In this document: positions 799-41,129 of the stretch, one piece after another
Numbering within the stretch: position 1 is the stretch's first letter
How the letters are laid out: each line of letters opens with the position of its first letter
Source: Sagittula stellata E-37
Lineage (GTDB): Bacteria; Pseudomonadota; Alphaproteobacteria; Rhodobacterales; Rhodobacteraceae
DNA: 64,000 bases
Assembly: GCF_039724765.1 (NCBI RefSeq)
Contig: NZ_CP155729.1
Span: 1,612,001 to 1,676,000, forward strand
Reading direction: 5' to 3'
Made by a program: the position numbers and the translations under genes
The notes under the pieces: generated by a model
Databases searched by the model: none
Seen by the model: only the letters and a program-made list of their open reading frames with translations
Told to the model about the DNA's origin: nothing

Positions 799-1944
799 TT
801 ACAGCGCGCTGCGGAACAGCTCTTCGAGGTTCTCTTCCGTCAGTTCCACCGGGTTGCCGCCGCGAGACGGGTCGATGATCGCGCCCTTGACCAGCGCCGG
901 GATGGCCTCTTCGGTCACGCCCAGATCCGACAGGCGGCGCGGTATGCCCAGGCTGTCGTTCAGCTCCTGCACGAAGGCGCGGAACCCGTCGAAGCCGCCC
1001 GCGATCCCAAGATAAGCCGACGCCATGTCGAACCGCTCGCGGATGGCTTCGGCGTTGAAGTCCAGCACCGTCGGCATGCAGACCGCGTTGGTCGTTCCGT
1101 GGTGGGTGTTGAAATGCGCGCCGATGGGGTGGCTCATGGCGTGGATCGCGCCCAGCCCCTTCTGGAAGGCCGTGGCCCCCATCATCGCCGCCGACATCAT
1201 CTGCGCCCGTGCCTCCAGATCCTGGCCGTTCTGGTAGGCGCGGGCCAGGTAGTCCTTCACCAGCCGCATGCCCTCCAGCGCGATGCCCTGGCTCATCGGA
1301 TGATAAAACGGGGAGGAGAACGCCTCCACGCAATGGGCAAAGGCATCGAGGCCGGTTCCGGCGGTGATCATCGCGGGCATGCCCACGGTCAGCTCCGGGT
1401 CGCAGATTACCACCGAGGGCAGCACCTTCGGGTGGAAGATGATCTTCTTCTCGTGGGTTTCCGAGTTGGTGATGACGCTCGCGCGCCCGACCTCCGACCC
1501 GGTCCCGGCGGTGGTCGGCACGGCGACGATGGGGGCGATGGCCGCCGCGTCGGCGCGGGTCCACCAGTCGCCGATGTCCTCGAAATCCCACACCTGGCGC
1601 GTCTGCCCGGCCATGAAGGCCACCATCTTGCCAAGGTCGAGGCCAGAGCCGCCGCCGAAGGCGATCACGCCGTCATGGCCGCCGTCACGATAGACCTTCA
1701 CCCCGGCGTCGAGGTTCTTTTCGTTGGGGTTCGGATCGACCTCGGCGAACAGCCCGCGGCCCAGCCCCGCCTGTTCCAGAATGTCGAGCGTCTGCGCCGT
1801 GATCGGCAGATCGGCCAGCCCGCGGTCGGTGACCAGCAGGGGCCGCGTGATGCCCGCCTGCGCGCAGGCGCCGGGCAATTCGCTGATGCGGCCCGCGCCG
1901 AACTTGATGGCGGTCGGGTAGGACCAGTTTCCGGTGAGACTCAT
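799..1944 (-). CDS. Iron-containing alcohol dehydrogenase
   Basis: 381 residues, the usual length for Fe-dependent (group III) alcohol dehydrogenases, which interconvert alcohols and aldehydes with NAD(P). The nucleotide-binding motif GGGSGLDLGK is at about 97-106. The metal ligands expected from FucO-type enzymes are visible as Asp200 and His204 (GTGLDAFAH), His268 (AIHAMSH) and His282 (NTHHGTTNA). It is the last gene of a minus-strand run with the aldehyde dehydrogenase 58 bases upstream, so it probably oxidises an alcohol intermediate that the dehydrogenase then takes to an acid. The substrate cannot be read from sequence. The cluster suggests an amino alcohol, possibly gamma-glutamylated. 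Confidence 0.93.
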   Translation of the reverse strand: MSLTGNWSYPTAIKFGAGRISELPGACAQAGITRPLLVTDRGLADLPITAQTLDILEQAGLGRGLFAEVDPNPNEKNLDAGVKVYRDGGHDGVIAFGGGSGLDLGKMVAFMAGQTRQVWDFEDIGDWWTRADAAAIAPIVAVPTTAGTGSEVGRASVITNSETHEKKIIFHPKVLPSVVICDPELTVGMPAMITAGTGLDAFAHCVEAFSSPFYHPMSQGIALEGMRLVKDYLARAYQNGQDLEARAQMMSAAMMGATAFQKGLGAIHAMSHPIGAHFNTHHGTTNAVCMPTVLDFNAEAIRERFDMASAYLGIAGGFDGFRAFVQELNDSLGIPRRLSDLGVTEEAIPALVKGAIIDPSRGGNPVELTEENLEELFRSAL

Positions 1945-2002
1945 GTGGTCACCTTCTCGATGTCTGCGTTGTTCGATGTGACGGCCCGAAGGCGCGCCGA
2001 TG

Positions 2003-3388
2003 TCATGCGGTGCCGAGCCGCTTCAGGTGGTAGGATTTGGGCCGGGTCAGGTTGTGATAGCCGATCTGCGACAGGCCGCCGCCGCGCCCGGTCTGCTTGC
2101 AGCCGGTCCAGCACAGGCCGGGGTCGAGGTAGTCGGCGCGGTTCAGGAACACTGTCCCGGTCTCGATCCGGTCGCCGATGCGTTCGGCCCGCTCCATGTC
2201 GGAGGTCCAGAGCGACGCGGTCAGACCGAAGTCGCTGTCGTTCATCAGCCGGATCGCTTCCTCGTCGTCCTTCACCTTCATGATGCCGACCACGGGGCCA
2301 AAGCTTTCGTCCCGCATCACCCGCATGTCGTGGGTCACGTCGGTCAGGATCTGCGGCGTCAGGTAGGCGGCACCGTCGTCTTCCGCGAAGGTGTCGATAT
2401 GGGCCGTGGCCCCGGCGTCCAGCGCCTCGGCGATCTGGGCGCGCACCTCGGCGCCAAAGCGGACGTTGGCCATCGGGCCTATGGTCGTCTCCTTGTCCAG
2501 CGGGTTGCCCAGCTTGTAGCCCTTCACCACCGCCACGGCCTTCTCGACGAAGGCGTCAAACAGCGCCTCATGCACATAGATCCGTTCGATCCCGCAGCAG
2601 CACTGACCGGAGTTGAACATCGCCCCGTCGATCAGCGTGTCGACGGCGGCATCCAGATCCGCGTCTTCCATGACATAGCCCGGGTCCTTGCCGCCCAGCT
2701 CCAGCCCGGTGCCGGTGAAGGTGCCCGCCGCTGCGCGCTCCATCGCCTTGCCGCCACCGACGGAGCCGGTGAAATTCACGAAGTCGAATGCATTGGCCGC
2801 GATCAGATCGGACGTGGTGTCATGGTCGAGGAAGACGTTCTGGAACACATCCTCGGGCACGCCCGCCGAATGGAACGCCTTTGCCATGCGCTCGCCCACC
2901 AGCAGGGTCTGCGTGGCGTGTTTCAGCATGACAGTGTTGCCCGCGATCAGCGCGGGCGCGACGGTGTTGATCGCCGTCATGTAGGGGTAGTTCCACGGCG
3001 CCACCACGAACACGACGCCCAGCGGCACCCGCTTGATGTAGCGCTTGAAGGTTGCGTCCTCGCCCACTTCGATCGGGGCCAGCGCGCTCTCGGCGATCTC
3101 GGCCATGTAGGTGGCACGCTCGTTGAAGCCGCCGAACTCGCCGCCAAAGCGGACCGGGCGGCCCATCATGTGCGCCAGTTCCGGCACAATCTCGTCGTTC
3201 ATCGCGCCCACGGTGGCGACACCGGCCATCACGAGACGGATACGCTCCTCGATTGGACGCGCCGCCCATGCGGCCTGCGCCGCGCGGCCCTTCGCCGCTG
3301 CGGCCTTCGCCTCGTCCAGCGACAGCACCGGGCGCTCCGCAAAGACGCTGCCGTCGATGGGCGAGATACATTTCAGGGTATTTGTCAT
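2003..3388 (-). CDS. NAD(P)-dependent aldehyde dehydrogenase
   Basis: 461 residues with full ALDH architecture: cofactor region VVFVVAPWNYP (about 125-135), FTGSVGGG (206-213), general base Glu230 in LELGGKDPG and catalytic Cys264 in FNSGQCCCGIER. It oxidises an aldehyde to a carboxylate in the cytosol. It sits between the glutamine-synthetase-like gene (46 bases upstream) and the alcohol dehydrogenase, so the three probably act in sequence. Succinate-semialdehyde or gamma-glutamyl-aminoaldehyde type substrates are plausible. The family is certain, the substrate is not. Confidence 0.93.
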   Translation of the reverse strand: MTNTLKCISPIDGSVFAERPVLSLDEAKAAAAKGRAAQAAWAARPIEERIRLVMAGVATVGAMNDEIVPELAHMMGRPVRFGGEFGGFNERATYMAEIAESALAPIEVGEDATFKRYIKRVPLGVVFVVAPWNYPYMTAINTVAPALIAGNTVMLKHATQTLLVGERMAKAFHSAGVPEDVFQNVFLDHDTTSDLIAANAFDFVNFTGSVGGGKAMERAAAGTFTGTGLELGGKDPGYVMEDADLDAAVDTLIDGAMFNSGQCCCGIERIYVHEALFDAFVEKAVAVVKGYKLGNPLDKETTIGPMANVRFGAEVRAQIAEALDAGATAHIDTFAEDDGAAYLTPQILTDVTHDMRVMRDESFGPVVGIMKVKDDEEAIRLMNDSDFGLTASLWTSDMERAERIGDRIETGTVFLNRADYLDPGLCWTGCKQTGRGGGLSQIGYHNLTRPKSYHLKRLGTA

Positions 3389-3434
3389 TCCATCCTCTGG
3401 ATCAGTTCGGGTGTCCCAAGACGGGACCGCCCGG

Positions 3435-4796
3435 TCACGACATCTCGAATCCGCGCGCGATCTCGTAGTCGGTCACGACGCGGTTGAAATCCTCGATCTC
3501 CACCTCCGCCGCGCGGGCGTAGTGGACCACCACCTTGTCGCCAAAGGCCGCGCGCAGCATGTCGGACTGCAACAGTTCGCGCCGCGCGTCGCGCAGGGTG
3601 GCGGGCAGGCGCGAGGCATTGCCGGAATAGGCGTCGCCGCTGTAGGCGTCTTCGAGTTCCAGCTTGTCCTCGATGCCCTTCAGGCCCGCCGCCAGCAGCG
3701 CGGCCATGGCAAGGTAGGGGTTCAGGTCCGACCCGCCGACACGGCATTCGATGCGCACGCCCTTGGTGCCCTCGCCGCACAGACGGAATCCGGCGGTGCG
3801 GTTGTCGATGGACCAGATCACCCGCGTGGGGGCGAAGGTGCCGACCTGGAAGCGCTTGTAGCTGTTGATGTAGGGGGCCAGGAAATAGGTCACGTCGGGC
3901 GCGTACTTCAGCAGCCCCGCGACGTAGTGCTTCATCAGCCCCGACATGCCGAGGCTGTCCGCCTCGTCGAAGAAGGCCGGTTTGTCGCCCTCCCAAAGCG
4001 ACATGTGGACGTGACTGGAGGAGCCGACCTTGTCCTCGTGCCACTTGGCGATGAAGCTCGCGGCGTGGCCCTGTTGGTGCGCGATCTCCTTGATCGCGTG
4101 CTTGGCGATGGTGTGGTACTCGGCAGTGTCGAGCGCCGGGGCGTACTTGATGTTCAGCTCTTCCTGCCCGGTCTCCGCCTCGCCCTTCGAATTCTCGATC
4201 GGGATGCCCGCCGCCCACAGGTGGTTCCGCACGGGGCGCAGCACGTGCTCCTCCCGCGTGGTGAGCATGATGTTGTAATCCTCGTTGTAGCCCGCCAGCG
4301 TTTCCAGCGCGCGGAAGCCCGACTTGCGGATCTCCGGATAGGACTTCTCGAACAGGAAGAACTCCAGTTCGGTCGCCATCATCGGGGTGAAGCCCATGGC
4401 CTCCGCCCGCTTCACCTGCTTTTTCAGCATGGCGCGCGGCGTGTGCGGCACTTCTTCATGGGTGTGGTGGTCGAGGATGTCGCACAGCACCATCACCGTG
4501 CCGTCCAGCCACGGCATCGGTCGCAGCGTGGAGAGGTCCGGCTTCATCACGTAGTCGCCATAGCCCTTCTCCCACGAGGTCGACTCGTAGCCCTCCGGGG
4601 TGGCCATCTGGAGGTCGGTGGCGAACAGGTAGTTGCAGCAATGCGTCTCTTCCCAGGCCGAGGCGACGAAGTGCCCGGCGTGGAAACGTTTGCCCATCAG
4701 GCGGCCCTGCATGTCGACCGCGCACACCAGCACGGTGTCCACGAGGCCGCCGTCGACCTGTGCCTTGAGTTCATCGAAAGAAAGTGGGCCGGGCAT
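3435..4796 (-). CDS. Glutamine synthetase family protein (gamma-glutamyl-amine ligase type)
   Basis: 453 residues of the GS fold. Active-site segments are intact: ATELEFFLFE (141-150), GQEELNI (210-216), SHVHMSLW (261-268), NSYKRF and RIECR (348-352). GS-like enzymes of this shape, found outside the ammonium-assimilation operons, commonly ligate glutamate to amines (PuuA, GlnA3/GlnA4, IpuC types). Its position between a TRAP importer and aldehyde/alcohol dehydrogenases favours gamma-glutamylation of an imported amine over ammonia assimilation. It is clearly different in sequence from the two PuuA-like genes at 37.7 and 39.8 kb. The 55-base gap to dctP and 46-base gap to the dehydrogenase indicate co-transcription. 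Confidence 0.9.
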   Translation of the reverse strand: MPGPLSFDELKAQVDGGLVDTVLVCAVDMQGRLMGKRFHAGHFVASAWEETHCCNYLFATDLQMATPEGYESTSWEKGYGDYVMKPDLSTLRPMPWLDGTVMVLCDILDHHTHEEVPHTPRAMLKKQVKRAEAMGFTPMMATELEFFLFEKSYPEIRKSGFRALETLAGYNEDYNIMLTTREEHVLRPVRNHLWAAGIPIENSKGEAETGQEELNIKYAPALDTAEYHTIAKHAIKEIAHQQGHAASFIAKWHEDKVGSSSHVHMSLWEGDKPAFFDEADSLGMSGLMKHYVAGLLKYAPDVTYFLAPYINSYKRFQVGTFAPTRVIWSIDNRTAGFRLCGEGTKGVRIECRVGGSDLNPYLAMAALLAAGLKGIEDKLELEDAYSGDAYSGNASRLPATLRDARRELLQSDMLRAAFGDKVVVHYARAAEVEIEDFNRVVTDYEIARGFEMS

Positions 4797-4851
4797 GTCG
4801 TCGTCCTTTCAGAAGCGCCCCGGCACGCACACGCGCGCCGGGGCAGAGGTA

Positions 4852-5892
4852 TCACACGTTGTAGCGGTACGGACGGCCCGCCTTGGCCATGTCCGCGTTG
4901 TATTTCTTGAAGATCTCCACGACCTTCGCCTTGGTCTCCGACTCCGCCGCGATCTCGTCCCAGAACGTCTGGGCGGCCTTCTCGACCTGGTCCCATTCCG
5001 CATCGGGGATGGAGGTCAGTTTCATCTTGTCGCCGTTGACCCGAAGCGAGGCCTCGCCGCCCCAGTACCACCACTGGCGGTAGTAGTGCGACTGCTCCAT
5101 GCAGGTGGTCAACAGGAGCTTCAGGTCCTCCGGCAGTTCCTCCCAGCGGCCCATGTTCGCGAAGAAGTGGCCGATCCACGCCCCCGAGATGTTGTTGGTG
5201 AGGAAGTAGTTGGTCACGTCGGCCCATCCCACCGTGTAGTCCTCGGTAATGCCCGACCACGCGATGCCGTCCAGCTCGCCGGTTTGCACCGCGACCTCGA
5301 TGTCTTCCCACGGCAGCGTCACCGGCACCACGCCGAACTGCGACAGGAAACGGCCCGCGGTCGGGAAGGTGAAGACGCGCTTGCCTTCCAGGTCGGCCAG
5401 GCTGTTGATCGGGTCCTTCGTGGCGAAGTGGCAGGGGTCCCAGGACCCGGCGCTGATGTGCTTCACGCCGACCTTGGCGTATTCTTCCTTCCAGATCTCG
5501 TCGAGGCCGTACTGGTTGAACAGCACCGGCACGTCCAGCGAATAGCGCGACCCGAACGGGAAGTAGCCGCCGAACACCGTCACCTCGGTCGGCGAGGCCA
5601 TGGAGTCGTCGTCCGACTGCACCGCGTCGATGGTGCCGCGCTGAAGCGCGCGGAACAGCTCGCCCGTGGGCACGAGCTGATCGGCAAAGTAGAGCTCGAT
5701 CTGCATCCGGTCGCCGGCGATCTTGTTGAAGGTGTCGATGGCGGGTTTCACCACGTGCTCGGCCAGTGCCGCACCGGCATAGGTCTGCATCCGCCAGGTG
5801 ATCGTCGACTGCGCCAGCGCGGGCGCGGCCAGCGGCGCGGCGGCGACGCCGACACCGGCGGTCTTCAGGAACTTTCTGCGTGAGGTCGTCAT
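4852..5892 (-). CDS. TRAP transporter substrate-binding protein (DctP family)
   Basis: 346 residues. The N-terminus has a twin-arginine signal (TTSRRKFLKTAGVGVAA) and an Ala-x-Ala cleavage region near residue 28, so it is probably exported folded by Tat to the periplasm. The mature part is a DctP-type solute receptor (AGDRMQIELYFADQLVPTGE, with the Trp-rich WSGITEDYTVGWADVTNYF region). It delivers an organic solute, usually a carboxylate, to the DctQM permease encoded immediately upstream (48-base gap). Members of this subfamily with Tat signals often bind 2-oxo acids or amino-acid-like compounds, but the ligand here is unknown. Confidence 0.92.
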   Translation of the reverse strand: MTTSRRKFLKTAGVGVAAAPLAAPALAQSTITWRMQTYAGAALAEHVVKPAIDTFNKIAGDRMQIELYFADQLVPTGELFRALQRGTIDAVQSDDDSMASPTEVTVFGGYFPFGSRYSLDVPVLFNQYGLDEIWKEEYAKVGVKHISAGSWDPCHFATKDPINSLADLEGKRVFTFPTAGRFLSQFGVVPVTLPWEDIEVAVQTGELDGIAWSGITEDYTVGWADVTNYFLTNNISGAWIGHFFANMGRWEELPEDLKLLLTTCMEQSHYYRQWWYWGGEASLRVNGDKMKLTSIPDAEWDQVEKAAQTFWDEIAAESETKAKVVEIFKKYNADMAKAGRPYRYNV

Positions 5893-5940
5893 ATCCAGTC
5901 TCCTTGTTGAAATGCGTCCCCTGCACGGGGCTTCTGAGGG

Positions 5941-7263
5941 TTATTTTCCGTACACCAGATCCGGCAGCCAGAGCGCGATCTCCGGGAAGGCCATCACCAG
6001 CGCCAATGCACAGACCATGACCAGCGCAAATGGCACGATCGAGCGGTAGATATCGGTCAGCCCGATCTCCGGCGGCGCCATGGCGCGCATCAGGAACAGG
6101 TTGTAGCCGAAGGGCGGGGTCATGTAGGCGATCTGCGTGGTGATCGTGTAAAGCACGCCGTACCAGATCAGGTCGAAGCCCAGCTCTCCCACCAGCGGCA
6201 CGTACAGCGGCGCCACGATGACCAGCATCGCCGTGTCGTCGAGGAACGTGCCCATCACGATGAACGACAGCTGCATCAGGATCAGGATCATCCATGGGGA
6301 AAGGCCAAGCTGTTCGGTGAACAGGTTCTCGATGGCGCGCACCGCGCCCAGCCCGTCGAAGATCGCGCCAAAGCCCAGTGCGGCGAGGATGATCCACATG
6401 AACATGCAGGAAATCGCCAGCGTCTGCCGCACCGAGGTCTCGAACACCTCGCGCGTCATCCGCCGTTTCAGCACTGCCGCGACGAAGGCCGCCAGCGCCC
6501 CGATGGCCGAGCTTTCCACCAGCGAGGTCCAGCCCTTCACGAAGGGGAACATCATCACGAAGAAGATCACCAGCGGCAGGACGCCCGCACGCAGGAGGCG
6601 CAGCTTTTCCGACATGGGCACGTCGCGCTCTTCCTTCGGCAGCACCGGGCCAAGCTCCGGCTGAAGGCGGCAGCGCACGTAGATGTAGATGACGAACAGC
6701 GTGGCCATCATCAGCCCCGGCACCACGCCCGCCAGCCAAAGCTGCCCCACCGGCTGGCGCGCGATCATTGCATAGAGCACCAGCACCACCGAAGGCGGCA
6801 CGAGGATGCCCAGCGACGACCCCGCCTGTATCACGCCGGTCACCATGATCTTGTCGTAGCCCCGGCGCAGCAGTTCCGGCAGCGCGATGGTGGCCCCGAT
6901 GGCCATGCCCGCCACCGACAGCCCGTTCATGGCCGAGATCAGCACCATCAGGCCGATGGTGCCGATTGCCAGCCCGCCCCGCACCGGCCCCATCCAGACG
7001 TGGAACATCCGGTAGAGGTCGTCGGCGATCTTCGATTCCGACAGCACGTAGCCCATGAAGATGAACATCGGCAGGGTCAGCAGCGGATACCACTTCATCA
7101 GCTTCATAGCGGCGGCGAAGGGCACGTCCACGCCGCCCGTGCCCCACAGCAGCAGCCCCGCCAGCGCGCCGACGAAACCGATGGCACCGAACACGCGCTG
7201 GCCGGTCATCAGCATCAGCATCATGCCGGCGAACATGGTGATCGCGATCATTTCATAGGACAT
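5941..7263 (-). CDS. TRAP transporter large permease (DctM family)
   Basis: 440 residues, about 12 hydrophobic segments, starting MSYEMIAITMFAGMM. ATG 7263 was chosen because it overlaps the dctQ stop codon (ATGA), the normal TRAP arrangement. Typical DctM segments are visible: FIFMGYVLSESKIADDLY, GGLAIGTIG and PPSVVLVLYAMI. It forms the ion-driven channel of the importer with DctQ. The subunit order DctQ-DctM-DctP follows the N-formylglutamate amidohydrolase-like gene. Confidence 0.94.
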   Translation of the reverse strand: MSYEMIAITMFAGMMLMLMTGQRVFGAIGFVGALAGLLLWGTGGVDVPFAAAMKLMKWYPLLTLPMFIFMGYVLSESKIADDLYRMFHVWMGPVRGGLAIGTIGLMVLISAMNGLSVAGMAIGATIALPELLRRGYDKIMVTGVIQAGSSLGILVPPSVVLVLYAMIARQPVGQLWLAGVVPGLMMATLFVIYIYVRCRLQPELGPVLPKEERDVPMSEKLRLLRAGVLPLVIFFVMMFPFVKGWTSLVESSAIGALAAFVAAVLKRRMTREVFETSVRQTLAISCMFMWIILAALGFGAIFDGLGAVRAIENLFTEQLGLSPWMILILMQLSFIVMGTFLDDTAMLVIVAPLYVPLVGELGFDLIWYGVLYTITTQIAYMTPPFGYNLFLMRAMAPPEIGLTDIYRSIVPFALVMVCALALVMAFPEIALWLPDLVYGK

Positions 7264-7859
7264 CAGATCTCTACCCCGCGGATGCGGCCGATGTCCTTGA
7301 TCAGCTCTGCAAGTGTCTGGAGAATCATCAGGAAGATGCCGAAGGCTAGCACCAGCTTGATCGGCCACAGCATCGGGCGCCACGCGGTCGAGGACCGTTC
7401 GAGAAAGCCGATCTTCCCGGCTGCGCCGTCGATCCCGCCGGTGAACAAGGCGCCGAAGAATTCGGCGAAATACTCCAGCGGCTGCATCCCGAAGTAGCCC
7501 ATGGAATAGGCCAGCGATCCCAGCGCGCCGTACAGCAGCACACCGAGGTAGAACATCAGGAACAGAACCGTGAAGGCGTCGACCCAGGCCTTCTGCGTCA
7601 CGCTCCAGTTGCCGTAGAACAGGTCCATGCGCACGTTCGATCCCAGCTGGATCGAGTAGGGCCCGCCGAGGATGTAGTAGGCGACCATCACGAACTGCGC
7701 CGTCTCCAGCGTCCAGAGCGAGGGCAGGAAGGCCACCTTCGACACCGAGGACCACAGCAGCACGCCGATCAGCGCGAAGATCAGGTACATGGCGACCCGG
7801 CCGATGGCCCGGTTCATCGCCTCGACGGCGCGGACGAAACCGATCAGGACGCGGGGCAT
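7263..7859 (-). CDS. TRAP transporter small permease (DctQ family)
   Basis: 198 residues with four hydrophobic segments, longer than a minimal DctQ because of an insertion between the second and third helices. It starts MPRVLIGFVRAVEAMN and stops inside the dctM start codon (ATGA overlap). The start overlaps the 3' end of the upstream amidohydrolase-like gene by 16 bases, so translation of these genes is tightly coupled. Function: inner-membrane partner of DctM. Confidence 0.9.
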   Translation of the reverse strand: MPRVLIGFVRAVEAMNRAIGRVAMYLIFALIGVLLWSSVSKVAFLPSLWTLETAQFVMVAYYILGGPYSIQLGSNVRMDLFYGNWSVTQKAWVDAFTVLFLMFYLGVLLYGALGSLAYSMGYFGMQPLEYFAEFFGALFTGGIDGAAGKIGFLERSSTAWRPMLWPIKLVLAFGIFLMILQTLAELIKDIGRIRGVEI

Positions 7860-8593
7860 GTCGCCTCCAGCGCCGGGGTCAGCATCGACATGAGGTCGCG
7901 CGCCACGGTCCGGATGTCCTCCGGTGTGGTCAGCAGGTCGTTGCGTACCTCGATCATCACGTTGGGCAGGCCCCGGTACAGGGCATGGGTCTTCAGGGTA
8001 TGGGTCACGCCGTCCTCCGGACCGTAGGGGCGGTTGCGATGCACCACGCGGCCCTTCGGCGCGTGCGGCAGCATCAGATCCACCAGCCGCGCGTCGCTGT
8101 CGTGCAACAGGCCGATCTCCGTGTCGCGCTTTGCACCGTGAAACACAGGGGTGAAGCTGTGCACCGTCACCACCGCGCGGGCCTCGTCCAGCCGGGCGGC
8201 CACGGCGGCATGGAACGGGCGATAGACCATCTCCACCCGTTCGGCCTTCTGCATTTCCGTCAGTCCGGCGTTGCCCGGCACGTCGAAGACCTCGGACCGC
8301 GCGGGCATGGCACCGGGCGCCTCGGGCGGGCGGTTGCAGTCATAGACGAGCCGCGACACCGCGCCCGCCACCATCGGCGCATCCAGCGCCGCCGACAGCA
8401 CCACCGCCAGATCCCGCGCGCCCGGGTCCCAGGCCGCATGGCTGACCCGCGCTTCCGCCGTCAGGCCAAGATCCCCGAACCGCGCCGGGATCTCCGCCGA
8501 CGCATGCTCGCAGATCAGCAGGACGCCGCCGCGCCCCGTCTCGTTCATCACGTCGACCGCGTTCAGACGGTCTCCGCCCGGCCCTTCGGACAT
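7844..8593 (-). CDS. N-formylglutamate amidohydrolase family protein
   Basis: 249 residues of the FGase family: metal/active-site segment GVLLICEHASAEIP near the N-terminus and ALYRGLPNVMIEVRNDLL near the C-terminus, with VVTVHSFTPVFHGAKRDTEIG between. The first possible start is a GTG at 8626, but ATG 8593 (MSEGPGGD) has GGGGAG about seven bases upstream and is preferred. Family members hydrolyse N-acyl-glutamate amide bonds; HutG-type enzymes act in histidine degradation, but no hut gene is present. Here it is the first gene of the TRAP/GS operon, so it may instead cleave a gamma-glutamyl or related amide at the end of the pathway. That reassignment is inference. Confidence 0.88.
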   Translation of the reverse strand: MSEGPGGDRLNAVDVMNETGRGGVLLICEHASAEIPARFGDLGLTAEARVSHAAWDPGARDLAVVLSAALDAPMVAGAVSRLVYDCNRPPEAPGAMPARSEVFDVPGNAGLTEMQKAERVEMVYRPFHAAVAARLDEARAVVTVHSFTPVFHGAKRDTEIGLLHDSDARLVDLMLPHAPKGRVVHRNRPYGPEDGVTHTLKTHALYRGLPNVMIEVRNDLLTTPEDIRTVARDLMSMLTPALEATCPAS

Positions 8594-8608
8594 CCTTTTC
8601 TCCCCGCT

Positions 8609-8657
8609 TTGAAGAAAACTCTCCACATCCGCGCCGCTTGTGTCAATATTTCTTCAA
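8609..8657. promoter_or_regulatory. Inverted repeat operator between the FGase operon and the RpiR regulator
   Basis: Perfect nine-base arms TTGAAGAAA (8609-8617) and TTTCTTCAA (8649-8657) lie 31 bases apart in the divergent intergenic region. GAA...TTC-rich inverted repeats are typical of RpiR/MurR-family operators. The site is placed to control both the seven-gene operon and the regulator. The right arm would lie inside the regulator if the GTG at 8640 were its start, which favours the downstream TTG. Confidence 0.55.
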
Positions 8658-8732
8658 GAGTGGGCGCGGGATTTCGGTTGCGCCCCGCCACCGCAGCCCA
8701 ATGCCGCAGCACATGCCCGGGGGGGACCGACC

Positions 8733-9608
8733 TTGACGCAGCCCAACGCCACCGTCCGCGACCTGATCCGGGCGCATTACACCAGCCTCACCGCCTCCGA
8801 ACGCAAGGCCGCCAACGCGCTCCTGGAAAACTACCCGGCCGCCGGGCTCGCCTCGATCACCATCGTCGCGGCGGAAACCGGCACCTCCACGCCCACCATC
8901 GCCCGCATGGTCCAGAAACTGGGCTTCAAGGGCTTCCCCCAGTTCCACCAGGCGCTGCTGAAGGAACTGCAGGCCAAGGTCTCCGGCCCCACGGAACGCC
9001 GCGCCAACTGGGCGGCGGAGGCGCCGGAATCCCACCTCCTCAACCGCTTCGCCAAGGCGGTGACGCAGAACATCCAGACCACCTTTTCCAACCTCTCCTC
9101 CGACACCTTCGACGCCGCCGCCCACCTGCTCGCCGACAGCGACCACACGCTCTTCATCGTCGGCGGCCGGATCACTCATGCGCTGGCCGACTATGCCTTC
9201 ACCCATCTGCAGGCGGTGCGCCCGAAGACGATCCACCTCACCTCCGCCTCGGCCAACTGGCCGCATTACCTGCTCGACATGGAACGGGGCGACACGCTCC
9301 TGATGTTCGACATCCGGCGCTACGAATCGAACCTCCTGCGTCTCGCCGAACTGGCGCGCGACAAGGGCGTGAACGTCGTCCTGCTGACCGACCAGTGGTC
9401 CAGCCCCATCGCCGACCTCGCCACGCAAAGCTTCAACTGCTGGGTCGAAATCCCTTCCGCCTGGGATTCGAACATCTCCACCATGATGCTGCTCGAAGCG
9501 CTGATCGCCGCCGCACAGGAAGAACGCTGGCCCGCCACCCGCGACCGCTTCGACCGGCTCGACAGCCTCTTCGAACAGACCCGCCTCTTCCGCAAACCGG
9601 GCGGCTGA
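8733..9608 (+). CDS. MurR/RpiR family transcriptional regulator
   Basis: 291 residues from TTG 8733 (LTQPNATVRDLIRAHY). An in-frame GTG at 8640 would give 322 residues, but the shorter form matches family length, has a G-rich stretch just upstream and leaves the inverted repeat outside the gene. The N-terminal RpiR-type helix-turn-helix covers about residues 15-75 (LTASERKAANALLENYPAAG then TSTPTIARMVQKLGFKGFPQFHQAL). A SIS sugar/ligand-binding domain follows at about 120-260 (TLFIVGGRITHALADYAF; DTLLMFDIRRYESNLLRLAELARDKG). It is divergent from the FGase/TRAP/GS operon and is its likely regulator. Confidence 0.9.
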   Translation: MTQPNATVRDLIRAHYTSLTASERKAANALLENYPAAGLASITIVAAETGTSTPTIARMVQKLGFKGFPQFHQALLKELQAKVSGPTERRANWAAEAPESHLLNRFAKAVTQNIQTTFSNLSSDTFDAAAHLLADSDHTLFIVGGRITHALADYAFTHLQAVRPKTIHLTSASANWPHYLLDMERGDTLLMFDIRRYESNLLRLAELARDKGVNVVLLTDQWSSPIADLATQSFNCWVEIPSAWDSNISTMMLLEALIAAAQEERWPATRDRFDRLDSLFEQTRLFRKPGG

Positions 9609-12432: not shown

Positions 12433-12445
12433 GGCCGGGCATGCA

Positions 12446-12467
12446 GGTATTTGGACCAAGATGAAGC
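12446..12467 (+). repeat. Dispersed element copy 2
   Basis: GGTATTT, three bases (GGA), then CCAAGATGAAG, in the 49-base gap between hpaF and hpaE. The ATG inside the element is in frame with hpaE and is an alternative start, but the better ribosome site serves ATG 12482. No clear GC hairpin adjoins this copy. Confidence 0.7.
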
Positions 12468-12481
12468 AGGAGGCCGGGAAG

Positions 12482-13984
12482 ATGGCGGATCTGGCGGGAA
12501 ATCTGGCACGGGCGGAGGCGGCGCTGGCGCGCTTTTCGGGCGGTGTGACTCACCGTATCGGCGGCAGGGACATAGGGTCGGACGCTTCTTTCGAGACGGT
12601 GTCGCCGGTCGACGGAGCGGTGCTGGCGCGTGTCGCCCGGGGCGGTGCTACCGAGATCGACGCGGCGGTTCAGGCGGCGGGCGCGGCCTTTGGCGCGTGG
12701 AAAGCGCTGCCGGGAAAGGAGCGCCGTGCCATCCTTCACAAGGTGGCGGATGCCATCGTGGCACGGGCGGATGAGATCGCGGTTGTCGAAGCGATGGACA
12801 CCGGGCAGGCGATCCGTTTCATGGCGAAGGCTGCGGTGCGCGGAGCGGAGAACTTCCGCTTTTTCGCCGACAAGGCGCCGGAGGCCTGCGACGGGCAGAC
12901 CCTGCATGCTCCGGGGCAGGTCAACATGACCTCGCGCCGTCCCATCGGGCCGGTGGGCGTGATCACGCCGTGGAATACGCCGTTCATGTTGTCGACCTGG
13001 AAGATCGCGCCGGCGCTCGCAGCCGGCTGCACGGTCGTCCAGAAGCCGGCGGAGTTCTCTCCGCTGACGGCGCGTTTGCTGGTGGAGATCGCCGAAGAGG
13101 CGGGTCTGCCGCCGGGTGTGCTGAACGTGGTGAACGGGTTCGGAGAGGACTGCGGTCGGGCCTTGACGGAGCACCCGGGCATCAAGGCGGTGGCCTTCGT
13201 CGGCGAGAGCGCCACCGGCTCGCACATCATGCGGCAGGGGGCCGATACGCTGAAGCGGGTGCATTTCGAGTTGGGCGGCAAGAACCCCGTGATCGTCTTC
13301 GACGATGCCGATCTGGAGCGCGCGGTGGATGCAGCGGTCTTCATGATCTACTCGCTGAACGGCGAACGGTGCACGTCGTCCTCGCGTCTTCTGGTGCAGG
13401 ACACCGTCTATGACGAGGTCTGCGCGAAGTTGGCCGAGCGGGCGGCGCGGATCAGGGTGGGTCACCCGCTCGACCCCGAGACGGTGATCGGGCCGCTGAT
13501 CCATCCGGTGCACGAGGAGAAGGTGTTGTCCTACTTCGAGCGGGCGAAGGCGGAGGGTGCGACCATCGCCACCGGCGGCAAGAAGGTGGGCGAGACGGGA
13601 TGCTATGTGGCGCCCACGCTGTTCACCGACGCCACCAACGACATGGCGGTGGCGCGGGAGGAGATCTTTGGACCGGTGCTGACGGCGATCCCCTTCCGGG
13701 ACGAGGAGGACGCGCTGCGCATTGCCAACGACACGGACTACGGATTGACCGCCTATCTCTGGACGCGCGACCTGGAGCGGGCGTTCCGGATGACCTCGGC
13801 CCTCGAGGCCGGGATGATGTGGGTGAACTCGGAGAACGTCCGGCATCTGCCCACGCCTTTCGGCGGGGTGAAGGCCAGCGGCATCGGGCGCGACGGGGGT
13901 GACTGGTCGTTCGATTTCTACATGGAGACGGTGAATGTCTGTTTCGCCACGGCGGCGCACCGGATCCCGAAGCTGGGCAGTTGA
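12482..13984 (+). CDS. hpaE: 5-carboxymethyl-2-hydroxymuconate semialdehyde dehydrogenase
   Basis: 500 residues of the ALDH superfamily. Cofactor segment VGVITPWNTPFMLSTWK (158-174), FVGESATG (239-246), general base Glu263 in HFELGGKNP and catalytic Cys297 in SLNGERCTSSSR. ATG 12482 has AGGAGG eight bases upstream. HpaE oxidises the semialdehyde released by extradiol cleavage of homoprotocatechuate to the dicarboxylic acid, using NAD. Its place between hpaF and hpaD makes this specific function likely. Confidence 0.92.
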   Translation: MADLAGNLARAEAALARFSGGVTHRIGGRDIGSDASFETVSPVDGAVLARVARGGATEIDAAVQAAGAAFGAWKALPGKERRAILHKVADAIVARADEIAVVEAMDTGQAIRFMAKAAVRGAENFRFFADKAPEACDGQTLHAPGQVNMTSRRPIGPVGVITPWNTPFMLSTWKIAPALAAGCTVVQKPAEFSPLTARLLVEIAEEAGLPPGVLNVVNGFGEDCGRALTEHPGIKAVAFVGESATGSHIMRQGADTLKRVHFELGGKNPVIVFDDADLERAVDAAVFMIYSLNGERCTSSSRLLVQDTVYDEVCAKLAERAARIRVGHPLDPETVIGPLIHPVHEEKVLSYFERAKAEGATIATGGKKVGETGCYVAPTLFTDATNDMAVAREEIFGPVLTAIPFRDEEDALRIANDTDYGLTAYLWTRDLERAFRMTSALEAGMMWVNSENVRHLPTPFGGVKASGIGRDGGDWSFDFYMETVNVCFATAAHRIPKLGS

Positions 13985-36274: not shown

Positions 36275-37576
36275 TCAGATGCCCAGCCGGTCGCGCAGAG
36301 AAAACCATGTCATCGCCAGCACCAACAGCGGAGAACGAAAGGCGCCGCCGCCCGGGAAGACCGGCGTGGGCAGGCGCGCGAAGGTGTCGAACCCCTCCGA
36401 CTGGCCGCGCACCGCCTCTGCAAGAAGGCGGCCAGCCTGCACCGCGTTGCCGACGCCGTGCCCGGAATAGCCAGAGGCCGACAGCACGTTGGACCCCAGC
36501 CGTGCCAAGTGGGGCAGGCGTTTCATAGTGATCGCCAGAGTGCCGCCCCATGCGTGGGTCAGGGGCGCCTCCGCAAGGTGGGGGTAGATCTGCGAGAGGG
36601 GCTTGCGCACCGTGGCGCGGATGTCCTTCGGGAACCTGTAGCCGTAGCTTTCGCCGCCGCCGAACAGCAGGCGGCGATCTTCGGACAGGCGGAAATAGTT
36701 GACCACGAAGAGGTCGTCGGCGACGGCCACGTCGCGCGCCAGCACCTTCTTTGCCGCGTCCCCCAGCGGTTCGGTCGCGACGATGAAATTGTTGATCGGC
36801 ATGACCCGCGCGGCAACGTTGGTGTCTAGCCCGCCAAGGTAGCCTCCGGTGGCAAGGATCAGGTGGTCGGCCTCGACCCGTCCGGCCTCTGTCTGGACCG
36901 TGACGCGGGCGCCTTCCTTGATATGGTGCACCGCCGAACGTTCGAAGATGCGCGCCCCTGCGTCATCCGCCGCCCGGGCCAGCCCCAGCGCCAGCCGCAG
37001 AGGGTGCAGGTGCGCGGCCCCCATATCGAGCATACCGCCGCAATAGGCGGGCGAGGGGCAGACCGCGTGGAAAGCCTCCTTGTCCATCGCCTCGATCGGG
37101 TAGCCATAGCGGTCGCCCATGTGCGCGGCGTAGCGGTGGATCCAGTCGGCGGAGTCCGCCGAGGTTGCAGCCCAGGCCACGCCCGGTTTCAGTGCACAGT
37201 CGATGTCATGCCGTGCCACCAGATCCCGGACCAGCGCCTTGGCGTCCTCGCCAAGCTCCCAAAGGCGCCGCGCCTCGTCCGGCCCAACCATCTTTTCCAG
37301 GGTGAACTGGTCCTGCCTTTGGCCGGAGCCCAATTGTCCACCGTTCCGTCCCGATGCGCCGAAGCCCACGCGATGCGCCTCGACCAGCACCACGTCGAGA
37401 CCGGCTTCGGCGAGGTGCAGGGCGGCCGACAAGCCCGTGTAGCCGCCGCCCACCACGCAGACGTCCGCCTTGACGGTGCCCTGGAGCACGGGGAATGGCG
37501 GCAGAGGGTCCGCCGTCTCGGCGTACCAGCTTTGCGGGTATTCACCGCGGCGGTCGTTTGAAAACAACAGGTTCAC
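36275..37576 (-). CDS. puuB: FAD-dependent oxidoreductase, gamma-glutamylputrescine oxidase (PuuB/OrdL) type
   Basis: 433 residues of the DAO family, from GTG 37576, preceded by GGAGG. FAD motif DVCVVGGGYTGLSAALHLAEAG (about 39-60), then VEAHRVGFGASGRNGGQLGSGQRQDQ, the PuuB-like segment, and the C-terminal ASGYSGHGVGNAVQAGRLLAE. PuuB oxidises gamma-glutamyl-putrescine to the aldehyde. It lies downstream of two PuuA-like ligases on the same strand, which supports the assignment. Symbol is by family; the exact amine is unproven. Confidence 0.88.
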   Translation of the reverse strand: MNLLFSNDRRGEYPQSWYAETADPLPPFPVLQGTVKADVCVVGGGYTGLSAALHLAEAGLDVVLVEAHRVGFGASGRNGGQLGSGQRQDQFTLEKMVGPDEARRLWELGEDAKALVRDLVARHDIDCALKPGVAWAATSADSADWIHRYAAHMGDRYGYPIEAMDKEAFHAVCPSPAYCGGMLDMGAAHLHPLRLALGLARAADDAGARIFERSAVHHIKEGARVTVQTEAGRVEADHLILATGGYLGGLDTNVAARVMPINNFIVATEPLGDAAKKVLARDVAVADDLFVVNYFRLSEDRRLLFGGGESYGYRFPKDIRATVRKPLSQIYPHLAEAPLTHAWGGTLAITMKRLPHLARLGSNVLSASGYSGHGVGNAVQAGRLLAEAVRGQSEGFDTFARLPTPVFPGGGAFRSPLLVLAMTWFSLRDRLGI

Positions 37577-37673
37577 GGGACCTCCACATGTCTTTGGCCA
37601 AAGGTCGGATGGCTGCGCGCCGTGATGCGCCGGGTTCCAGGCGCGGCAGTGGACAGCGCGCCCGCGACAGGGG

Positions 37674-39032
37674 TCATACGTTCAGGAGCAGGTGTTCCCG
37701 TTCCCACGGAGAGATCACCTGCAGGAATTCCTCGTATTCCGCCCGCTTGACGATCCCGTATACCCGGCAGAACTCCGGCCCGAGCACTTGGTGCAGGGCG
37801 TGGGCCTCCTCGAACAGTTCCAGCGCCTGTCCCAGCACCTGCGGGAAATCGCCGTCGCCCTCGTAGGCATCGCCCATGAACTCGTCCGAAGGCTCCAACT
37901 CGGCCACCAGACCGAGGTAACCGCAGGCCAGCGAAGCCGCGATCCCCAGGTAGGGGTTGCAGTCCATGCCCGCGACGCGGTTCTCCACCCGGCGCGCGTC
38001 GGGCGAGGCCAGCGGCACGCGGATACCCGTCGTCCGGTTGTCGCGGCCCCATTCGAGGTTGATAGGCGCCGCGTGGTCCTTCACATACCGGCGGTAGCTG
38101 TTCACGTAGGGCGCCATCACCGCGATGGCCGTCGGCATGTGCCGCTGGAGTCCACCGATGAAGTGGCGGAACATCGCGGTCTCTTCTCCCTCCGGCCCTG
38201 CAAACACGTTCTGGCCGGTCTTCAGGTCCAGCACCGAATGGTGGATGTGCATGGCAGAGCCGGGTTCGTCCGCGATCGGTTTGGCCATGAAGGTGGCAAA
38301 GCAGTCGTGCCGCAACGCGGCTTCCCGGATCAGGCGTTTGAAGTAAAAGACCTCGTCCGCCAGCCGGACCGGGCTCCCGTGCCGCAGGTTGATCTCGAGC
38401 TGTCCAGCGCCGCCTTCCTGCGTGATGCCGTCGATCTCGAAGCCCTGCGCCTCGGCAAAGTCGTAGATGTCGTCGATCACCGGGCCGAATTCATCCACCG
38501 CGGTCATCGAATAGGCCTGGCGCGCCGCCGCCGGACGGCCCGAACGGCCCATCATCGGCTTGATGTCATGCGCCGGGTCGATGTTGCGCGCGACGAGGAA
38601 GAACTCCATCTCCGGCGCCACGACAGGTGTCCAGCCCTTCTCTTCGTACATCGCCACGACCCGCTTCAGCACGTTGCGCGGCGAAAAGGGGATCGGCTCT
38701 CCATGCCTGTCGAAGGCGTCGTGAATGACCTGCAACGTCCAGTCGCCCGTCCAGGGCGCGGCCGTCGCGGTGGTCATATCCGGTTTCAGGATCATGTCCC
38801 GTTCGATGAAACCGTCGTCGCCAGCCGCTTCGCCCCAGTCGCCGGTGATCGTCTGGTAGAAGATCGAGTCCGGCAGGTGGAAGTGCTTCTGACGGGCGAA
38901 TTTCGAGGCTGGCACCGCCTTGCCGCGCGCAATGCCCGGCAGGTCGGAGATGATGCACTCCACCTCGTCCAGCCGCCGTTGCGCAAGGTAGTCCCGTGCC
39001 GCCTCCGGCAGGTCGTCCTCGAATCCGCTCAT
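37674..39032 (-). CDS. puuA: Glutamine synthetase family protein (gamma-glutamylputrescine synthetase type), copy 1
   Basis: 452 residues from ATG 39032, which overlaps the stop of the amidotransferase gene (ATGA). GS active-site segments: VAPEMEFFLVARN, GQLEINLRHG, MHIHHSVLDL, VNSYRRYV, RDNRTTGIRVPL and RRVENRVAGMDCNPYLG. PuuA ligates glutamate to putrescine to protect the amino group before oxidation. It pairs with a second, diverged GS-like gene two genes upstream, suggesting two amine substrates or a heteromer. Confidence 0.9.
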   Translation of the reverse strand: MSGFEDDLPEAARDYLAQRRLDEVECIISDLPGIARGKAVPASKFARQKHFHLPDSIFYQTITGDWGEAAGDDGFIERDMILKPDMTTATAAPWTGDWTLQVIHDAFDRHGEPIPFSPRNVLKRVVAMYEEKGWTPVVAPEMEFFLVARNIDPAHDIKPMMGRSGRPAAARQAYSMTAVDEFGPVIDDIYDFAEAQGFEIDGITQEGGAGQLEINLRHGSPVRLADEVFYFKRLIREAALRHDCFATFMAKPIADEPGSAMHIHHSVLDLKTGQNVFAGPEGEETAMFRHFIGGLQRHMPTAIAVMAPYVNSYRRYVKDHAAPINLEWGRDNRTTGIRVPLASPDARRVENRVAGMDCNPYLGIAASLACGYLGLVAELEPSDEFMGDAYEGDGDFPQVLGQALELFEEAHALHQVLGPEFCRVYGIVKRAEYEEFLQVISPWEREHLLLNV

Positions 39033-39712
39033 GAAATCGTCCTTTCCCGGAAGAACCGCGCGAACATCTCGGCGATCTCTCCGCTGTCGAGGGGCGTCCC
39101 CAGTTTCGCTGCAGCCGCCGCCAGAGTGTCGTCCGGCACCACGCCGGGGCCGCGTTTTTCGATCAGGGCGCGGGTGTAGGCGTCGCCGAACTCCGGATGG
39201 GGCTGCACGCTCAGCGCCTTGCCGGGATACAGCAGGGCGGCATGTGTGCAGAAATCGCTGGACGCGATGGTTTCGGCTCCGGCGGGGGGCGTGATGACCT
39301 GGTCCTGATGGTAGGCGTGGATCACCTTGTCGCCACTCGGGAAGCGGTAGGTGACGGGTCCGATGGACCACCCGCCCTTGAATTTCTCGACGTGCCCGCC
39401 AAGCGCCTGCGCGATGGCCTGATGGCCGAAACAGACGCCGACCATGGGCTTGTCGGCGGCAATGGCGTCACGGATGAACTGCATCAGCGGTTCCATCCAC
39501 GGATGGTCTTCGTAGACCCCATGCCGCGAGCCGGTGATCAGCCAGCCGTCGGCATCCTCGACGCTTTCCGGAAAGACGCCATCGACGACCGACCAGCTTT
39601 CGAAGTCGAAGCCGTAGGGTTTCAACATACGGACGAAAAATCCCGGGTATTCGCCGAACTCGGAGACGAGATCAGCAGGAACAGGGCCGGTTTGCAGAAT
39701 ACCGATCTTCAT
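39029..39712 (-). CDS. Class I glutamine amidotransferase-like protein
   Basis: 227 residues of the class I GATase fold: nucleophile Cys in MVGVCFGHQAIAQALGG (about 92-108), His/Glu in LSVQPHPEFGDAY. It is a stand-alone domain like GMP-synthase-type amidotransferases and unlike the PuuD peptidase in exact motifs. In this operon, overlapping copy 1 of puuA, it may hydrolyse a gamma-glutamyl bond to release the product of the pathway. That role is inferred from position. Confidence 0.85.
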   Translation of the reverse strand: MKIGILQTGPVPADLVSEFGEYPGFFVRMLKPYGFDFESWSVVDGVFPESVEDADGWLITGSRHGVYEDHPWMEPLMQFIRDAIAADKPMVGVCFGHQAIAQALGGHVEKFKGGWSIGPVTYRFPSGDKVIHAYHQDQVITPPAGAETIASSDFCTHAALLYPGKALSVQPHPEFGDAYTRALIEKRGPGVVPDDTLAAAAAKLGTPLDSGEIAEMFARFFRERTIS

Positions 39713-39782
39713 GGATCACCACGGTTTGTCGGGACGTTATGCGTCTCGGCGCCGCACCGCAAGGGGGCGCGCAGAGGCGGGT

Positions 39783-41129
39783 TCAGACGGTGTCGAGGTA
39801 GATGTCGACGCGCTCCTGCTCGGTCAGGTCTTCCATGTCGCGGCTTTCCTGGCGTTTGAGCATGACGATGTTGCGGATCATCTCGCGCGGGAAGATGCGC
39901 GGCAGGACGGTGCTTTTTTCGAAGGCGTCGATGGCGCTGTCCCAGTCGCGTGGGATCGAAGGCAGGTCCTGCGCATAGGCGTTGCCGGTGATCGGGGCCG
40001 GCGGCAGCTCGCCGTCCTCGATCCCCATCAGCGCCGCGCCGAGGATCGCAGCCAGGGCGAGGTAGGGGTTCACGTCGCCGCCGGAGACGCGATGTTCGAT
40101 ACGGCGCGCGGCCGGACTGCCCGAGGGCACCCGGATCGCCACGGTGCGGTTCTCGTAGGCCCAGGACAGGGCCGCGGGCGCATGCGCACCCGGCACGAAC
40201 CGTTCGTAACTGTTGAGGTGCGGGGCATAGATCAGCGTGCTGTCGTGCAGCGCCTTCAGGCAGCCGGCGATGGCATGGTGCAGGACATCCGTCCCCTCGG
40301 GCCCGCCGTTGTCGAAGATGTTCCTCCCGTCCTTGTCCAGCACCGAGAAATGCGCGTGCATCCCCGAGCCGGCATAGTCGGCATAGGGTTTCGCCATGAA
40401 GGAGGCGGCGAAACCATGTTTGCGGGCGAGGCCTTTCACCAGCGTCTTGAACAGCCATGCGTCGTCCGCCGCCTTGAGGCCATCCTCCTGGTGCAGCAGG
40501 TTCACCTCGAACTGGCCCAGACCGGCCTCCGAGATCATCGTGTCCGCAGGGATGTCCATCATCTCGCAGGCTTCGTAGAGATCGGTAAAGAAGGTATCGA
40601 AGGCGTCGAGGGCCCGGATCGACAGGACCTCGGCCATGTCGCGCCGCTTGCCCGAGCGGGGCGATACCGGCACGCGAAGTGTGCGCCCGCTGTCGTCGAT
40701 CAGGTAGAATTCCAGTTCCACCGCGCTGACCGGCGTCAGGCCACGCTCGGCATAGCGTTGCAGGATCGCGTTGAGCACGTGACGCGGGTCCCCGTCGTAG
40801 GGACGCCCGTCCTCGTGGAACATCCACAGCGGTATCATGGCCGAGGGCGCCTCCAGCCATGGCATGGGCACGAAGCCGCGTTCCGTCGGGAACAGTGTGG
40901 CGTCGCGGTCTCCTGAATCCAAGACGAGAGGGCTGTCCTCGATGTCCTCGCCCCAGATGTCGACGGACAGGGCGGAATACGGAAAGCGCGTTCCCTCCGA
41001 CAGGAGCTTGACGGCGGAAGGAATGGGCATCCGCTTGCCGCGTGCTACGCCGTTAAGGTCGCATGCTGCGGCTCGGATGGTACGGATCTGCGGGCGCTCG
41101 TGCAGCCAGGAGGCAGCGGGGGCGGGCAT
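39783..41129 (-). CDS. Glutamine synthetase family protein (PuuA-like), copy 2
   Basis: 448 residues. Active-site segments SAVELEFYLIDD, GQFEVNLLHQ, MHAHFSVLDKD, LNSYERFVPG, ENRTVAIRVPSG and RRIEHRVSGGDVNPYLA are intact. It shares layout with copy 1 but differs throughout, so the two are old paralogues rather than a recent duplication. The 70-base gap to the amidotransferase fits one operon. It likely ligates glutamate to a second amine. Confidence 0.88.
   Translation of the reverse strand: MPAPAASWLHERPQIRTIRAAACDLNGVARGKRMPIPSAVKLLSEGTRFPYSALSVDIWGEDIEDSPLVLDSGDRDATLFPTERGFVPMPWLEAPSAMIPLWMFHEDGRPYDGDPRHVLNAILQRYAERGLTPVSAVELEFYLIDDSGRTLRVPVSPRSGKRRDMAEVLSIRALDAFDTFFTDLYEACEMMDIPADTMISEAGLGQFEVNLLHQEDGLKAADDAWLFKTLVKGLARKHGFAASFMAKPYADYAGSGMHAHFSVLDKDGRNIFDNGGPEGTDVLHHAIAGCLKALHDSTLIYAPHLNSYERFVPGAHAPAALSWAYENRTVAIRVPSGSPAARRIEHRVSGGDVNPYLALAAILGAALMGIEDGELPPAPITGNAYAQDLPSIPRDWDSAIDAFEKSTVLPRIFPREMIRNIVMLKRQESRDMEDLTEQERVDIYLDTV

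Follow-up and report, generated by a model that had tools for sequence, protein, structure and literature searches.

A stretch of 64,000 nucleotides from Sagittula stellata E-37 (contig NZ_CP155729.1, positions 1,612,001 to 1,676,000 of the forward strand; hereafter the window) carries at 799–9608 seven tightly packed minus-strand genes opposite a gene for an RpiR-family regulator. With high confidence we read this operon as an Eto-type system that would utilise ethanolamine via a gamma-glutamyl route, and the organism is very probably one more genome using ethanolamine. The eight genes are as follows.

799–1944, minus strand: iron-containing alcohol dehydrogenase (Fe-ADH; PF00465, 2.4e-48; PF25137, 3.7e-44), counterpart of the published gamma-glutamylethanolamide dehydrogenase (GETADH)
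2003–3388, minus strand: aldehyde dehydrogenase (ALDH; PF00171, 1.3e-115), counterpart of gamma-glutamylacetaldehydeamide dehydrogenase (GAADDH)
3435–4796, minus strand: glutamine synthetase (GS)-like ligase (PF00120, GS catalytic domain, 1.8e-93), counterpart of ethanolamine gamma-glutamylase (ETAGA)
4852–5892, minus strand: TRAP solute-binding protein DctP with Tat signal (Pfam; 666 bits to 4uab/4xf5), counterpart of EtoX
5941–7263, minus strand: TRAP large permease DctM (PF06808, 7.9e-69), counterpart of EtoW
7263–7859, minus strand: TRAP small permease DctQ (PF04290, 4.7e-13), counterpart of EtoV
7844–8593, minus strand: formylglutamate amidohydrolase (FGase)-family protein (PF05013, 5.3e-38), counterpart of gamma-glutamylglycine amidohydrolase (GGAH)
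8733–9608, plus strand: RpiR-family regulator (Pfam HTH_6 and SIS; likely start TTG 8733, given as 8640 in the list of open reading frames)

All eight genes matched Pfam models above the gathering cut-offs. The order of transcription on the minus strand is FGase, DctQ, DctM, DctP, GS-like ligase, ALDH, and Fe-ADH, with gaps of 58, 46, 55, and 48 bases and with overlaps between DctM and DctQ, where the ATG start of the former overlaps the stop of the latter, and between DctQ and FGase. The first-pass annotation had described a seven-gene run on the minus strand opposite RpiR with gaps of at most 58 bases, and the Pfam matches and coordinates bear this out.

In the proposed pathway, the TRAP protein would capture periplasmic ethanolamine, which forms the head group of a widespread membrane lipid, for import through EtoVW. 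An ATP-consuming reaction of the GS-like ligase would then couple ethanolamine to glutamate, forming gamma-glutamylethanolamide; Fe-ADH would turn the alcohol of this compound into the aldehyde, ALDH would convert the aldehyde to gamma-glutamylglycine, and the FGase-like amidohydrolase would release glycine and glutamate, the whole gene set being under the putative control of the RpiR protein. We infer each enzyme step in Sagittula stellata from protein family and from published assignments; the enzyme steps of the published ethanolamine route rest partly on prediction themselves (PMC10132767, PMC6529630; the cited papers were available in part, and statements that rest on them are limited to those parts). 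The first-pass annotation had arrived at the same sequence of TRAP import, glutamylation, two oxidations, and glutamate release, which matches the published pathway (PMC10132767; parallel proposal in PMC6529630), and it had expected an amino alcohol as substrate, with ethanolamine, the published substrate (PMC10132767), first on its list. Its further statement that Fe-ADH, a GS-like ligase, and FGase make up a pathway that could not be named did not hold: pathway and gene set are already known from marine and related bacteria, and the combination is in print down to regulator type and gene order (PMC10132767).

The predicted specificity of import for ethanolamine is well supported by the orthology and residues of the solute-binding protein. 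Residues 26–344 of DctP aligned to PDB entries 4UAB/4XF5 over 319 residues without a gap at 666 bits, and the next distinct chain in the PDB search reached 70 bits. 4UAB is Csal_0678 of Chromohalobacter salexigens with bound ethanolamine, which is coordinated by the platform residue Glu220 (PMC12410723). In our alignment E217 of the window DctP corresponds to E220 of Csal_0678, with positions counted on the sequence of Chromohalobacter israelensis (locus L072). We compared the window with relatives comprising the best 80 of 587 confirmed loci, and counts over these loci hold for close relatives only. E217 was the same in all 61 aligned DctP rows (60 loci and the window), after four of 64 rows (L037, L048, L052, and L057), in which the N-terminus was short in the extraction, had been dropped. 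The arginine that accompanies carboxylate ligands in TRAP binding proteins is missing from Csal_0678 (PMC4646407). At this position the window DctP has F174, while Arg is present in all five further TRAP proteins aligned, of which four are paralogs encoded in the window's genome and one is the DctP of locus L069. The Tat signal model matched above its cut-off. No second close copy of DctP was found in the window's genome (next match 27% identical), and a binding protein at E < 1e-100 was present in two of the four genomes searched in the genus, the window's own included. Judged by its sequence, the window DctP is orthologous to Csal_0678/EtoX.

The main substrate might instead be another amino alcohol, such as 3-aminopropanol, isopropanolamine, or serinol, with unchanged chemistry: membership of the Fe-ADH and ALDH families leaves the substrate undecided, GS-like amine ligases can accept a range of amines, and the wider family of binding proteins may differ in specificity, as those of 12 of the 64 loci form a separate group with 64–67% identity to that of the window. 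The window DctP, however, sits with the other 52 rows (75–94% identical), among them the C. israelensis protein at 85%, and it has both E217 and F174. We therefore consider a different main substrate quite improbable. In the separate group (L002, L004, L019, L023, L024, L032, L041, L056, L059, L071, L076, and L078) the platform glutamate is kept, and specificity may possibly be different. In L002, L004, and L041 of this group the adjoining ligase is 79% and the ALDH 84–86% identical to those of the window.

The best PDB matches of the ligase were 5dm3 (740 bits) and 11zs (576 bits), with all others at 166 bits or less. The C. israelensis operon encodes a ligase nearly identical to 5dm3, and this solved relative therefore comes from the same operon type. 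Like DctP, the window ligase is orthologous to its Chromohalobacter counterpart. Depositors named both structures as glutamine synthetases (L-glutamine synthetase in the case of 5dm3), the protein has a GS catalytic domain, and NCBIfam glutamate-ammonia ligase models match it, all under cut-off; a true glutamine synthetase in an operon for nitrogen assimilation would account for these matches. Given the operon origin of 5dm3, the distance to any structure beyond these two, the catabolic operon partners, and six further GS-family matches in the genome, we attach next to no credence to it. The ligase itself has no second close copy in the window's genome (next match 31% identical).

Polyamine catabolism of the Puu type also had to be weighed. 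The Puu putrescine pathway places gamma-glutamylation before oxidation and includes an amine oxidase step and a PuuD-type hydrolase, and a GS-like ligase with an aldehyde dehydrogenase belongs to this plan as well. The gamma-glutamylputrescine synthetase model NF045547 matched the ligase at 197 bits, under its cut-off of 650. While gamma-glutamylation is common to both, the operon contains neither an amine oxidase nor a PuuD-type hydrolase or class-I amidotransferase, and has an alcohol dehydrogenase instead; moreover, a set with Puu gene kinds sits elsewhere in the window, at 36275–41129. Polyamine catabolism by the operon at 799–9608 is therefore extremely unlikely. The other set, which looks like Puu-type polyamine catabolism, consists of the following genes.

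36275–37576, minus strand: DAO oxidoreductase
37674–39371, minus strand: GS-like ligase
39029–39712, minus strand: class-I glutamine amidotransferase
39783–41129, minus strand: GS-like ligase

Among the remaining enzymes of the ethanolamine operon, Fe-ADH has LDAFAH at residue 199, which we take to be the metal ligands, and is 80% identical to the C. israelensis copy; ALDH, 79% identical to its copy there, has the motifs ELGGK (residue 230) and GQCC (residue 261). The sole PDB match of the FGase was 2odf (Atu2144), at 252 bits.

Of the 80 loci, 53 had the full set of eight genes with this order and orientation, a Chromohalobacter among them, and the arrangement is therefore not due to chance; in 47 of these complete loci every gap between matched stretches was below 500 bases. 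Among the 27 incomplete loci, the available DNA of 15 ended less than 8000 bases from the ligase on at least one side. Three loci with full 8000-base flanks have RpiR, FGase, and the TRAP genes and gave no match for Fe-ADH (L006 and L047) or for ALDH (L021); another dehydrogenase may substitute there. In five of the 80 loci (L005, L016, L017, L018, and L025), which have no TRAP genes, a gene of the inositol-monophosphatase family lies upstream of FGase and ligase, and a Na/Pi-cotransporter-like gene was present in four (L005, L018, L026, and L033), in L026 within the operon between DctP and ligase. Such variants might belong to a route starting from phosphoethanolamine; no paper on the phosphatase variants was found among 10 of 156 results, judged by titles and abstract openings, of a literature search on glycerophosphoethanolamine. 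Among the best 80 of 587, the closest locus is L001, whose DctP is 94% identical to that of the window; its title gives Enemella evansiae, an actinobacterial name, while the other titles are mostly of alphaproteobacteria with a few gammaproteobacteria. A recent transfer or a mixed assembly could explain this placement.

Several points weigh against ethanolamine utilisation by this operon, the depositors' names for the two ligase structures among them. The comparison with the ethanolamine site by name covers one residue, the platform glutamate. For none of the operon enzymes did an NCBIfam equivalog model reach its cut-off, and function was therefore assigned from orthology and context. Twelve of the 80 loci had full flanks yet were without one to seven of the eight genes, which may be a real difference or a gene lying farther off. 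In Phaeobacter sp. MED193 the binding protein was also raised in the absence of phosphate (PMC10132767), and its induction is therefore not by ethanolamine alone. Finally, the route of C. salexigens is called "predicted in silico" in one paper (PMC6529630) and "demonstrated" in another (PMC10132767).

The EutBC/metabolosome route of ethanolamine use was rejected, since EutB (PF06751) was unmatched in the window's genome while the E. coli control was positive. A second aldehyde dehydrogenase (Pfam Aldedh, 4.8e-174) lies at 12440–13984 on the plus strand of the window.

The RpiR gene more likely starts at TTG 8733 (291 aa), which is preceded by a run of G, than at the listed GTG 8640, because the latter overlaps a TTGACA box also present in relatives. 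With the TTG start the divergent intergenic region comprises 139 bases.

8594–8732, no strand: divergent intergenic region with the TTGACA box and an inverted repeat, TTGAAGAA / TTCTTCAA, at 8650–8657 and 8609–8616

This repeat is a weak candidate for the RpiR operator. The exact pair occurred in none of the 58 relatives' intergenic regions, which were delimited by match ends and may in some cases be incomplete; one half was found in L003 only, and L045 has a similar pair. We also scored an operator-like pattern drawn up by visual inspection of a few regions, so that the same sequences were partly reused. Of 59 regions, those of 58 relatives and that of the window, 13 scored at least 26 of 37; the window scored 22, and none of 100 plain base shuffles of its region exceeded 19. 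While 27 of the 59 regions beat all their own shuffles, 32 did not, and the pattern is a lead only; a conserved RpiR operator was not established among these regions. We infer that the RpiR protein regulates the operon, and any ligand or sign assigned to it would be equally putative. That the operon, through a broad gamma-glutamyl route, serves a second amino alcohol besides ethanolamine, with RpiR sensing a gamma-glutamyl intermediate instead of ethanolamine, appears unlikely. Points of some use are the signal and operator of the regulator, and the relatives that have phosphatase-family and phosphate-transporter-like genes near the TRAP genes or replacing them.

The same chemistry has been proposed for Streptomyces coelicolor, where GlnA4 would be the ligase and a member of the formylglutamate amidohydrolase family would act last (PMC6529630). 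Glutamylation, two oxidations, and FGase-family hydrolysis to glycine and glutamate are shared with the proposed route in the window. In contrast, the S. coelicolor cluster has a short-chain dehydrogenase where the window has Fe-ADH, its regulator is EtuRI, and the available part of the paper gives a putative transporter or none and names no TRAP system, whereas the window has TRAP genes. Another known system is the ethanolamine operon of C. salexigens, to which Csal_0678 belongs: in the related C. israelensis all eight genes are ordered alike and are 57–87% identical to those of the window, although the intergenic region is alike only in part. Phaeobacter sp. MED193 has a single operon comprising RpiR, GGAH, EtoV, EtoW, EtoX, ETAGA, GAADDH, and GETADH (MED193_10021–10056; PMC10132767). 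It has the same eight gene kinds as the window, its locus tags ascend in the window's order, and no difference was seen at this level of comparison, that is, by gene kinds and locus-tag order as given in the available part of the paper. Five of the operon proteins of MED193 were raised on phosphorylethanolamine, and its EtoX bound ethanolamine with a dissociation constant of 7.9 μM and did not bind four named analogues (PMC10132767). According to the ocean data used in that work, about 5 to 10% of the bacteria there carry etoX (PMC10132767).

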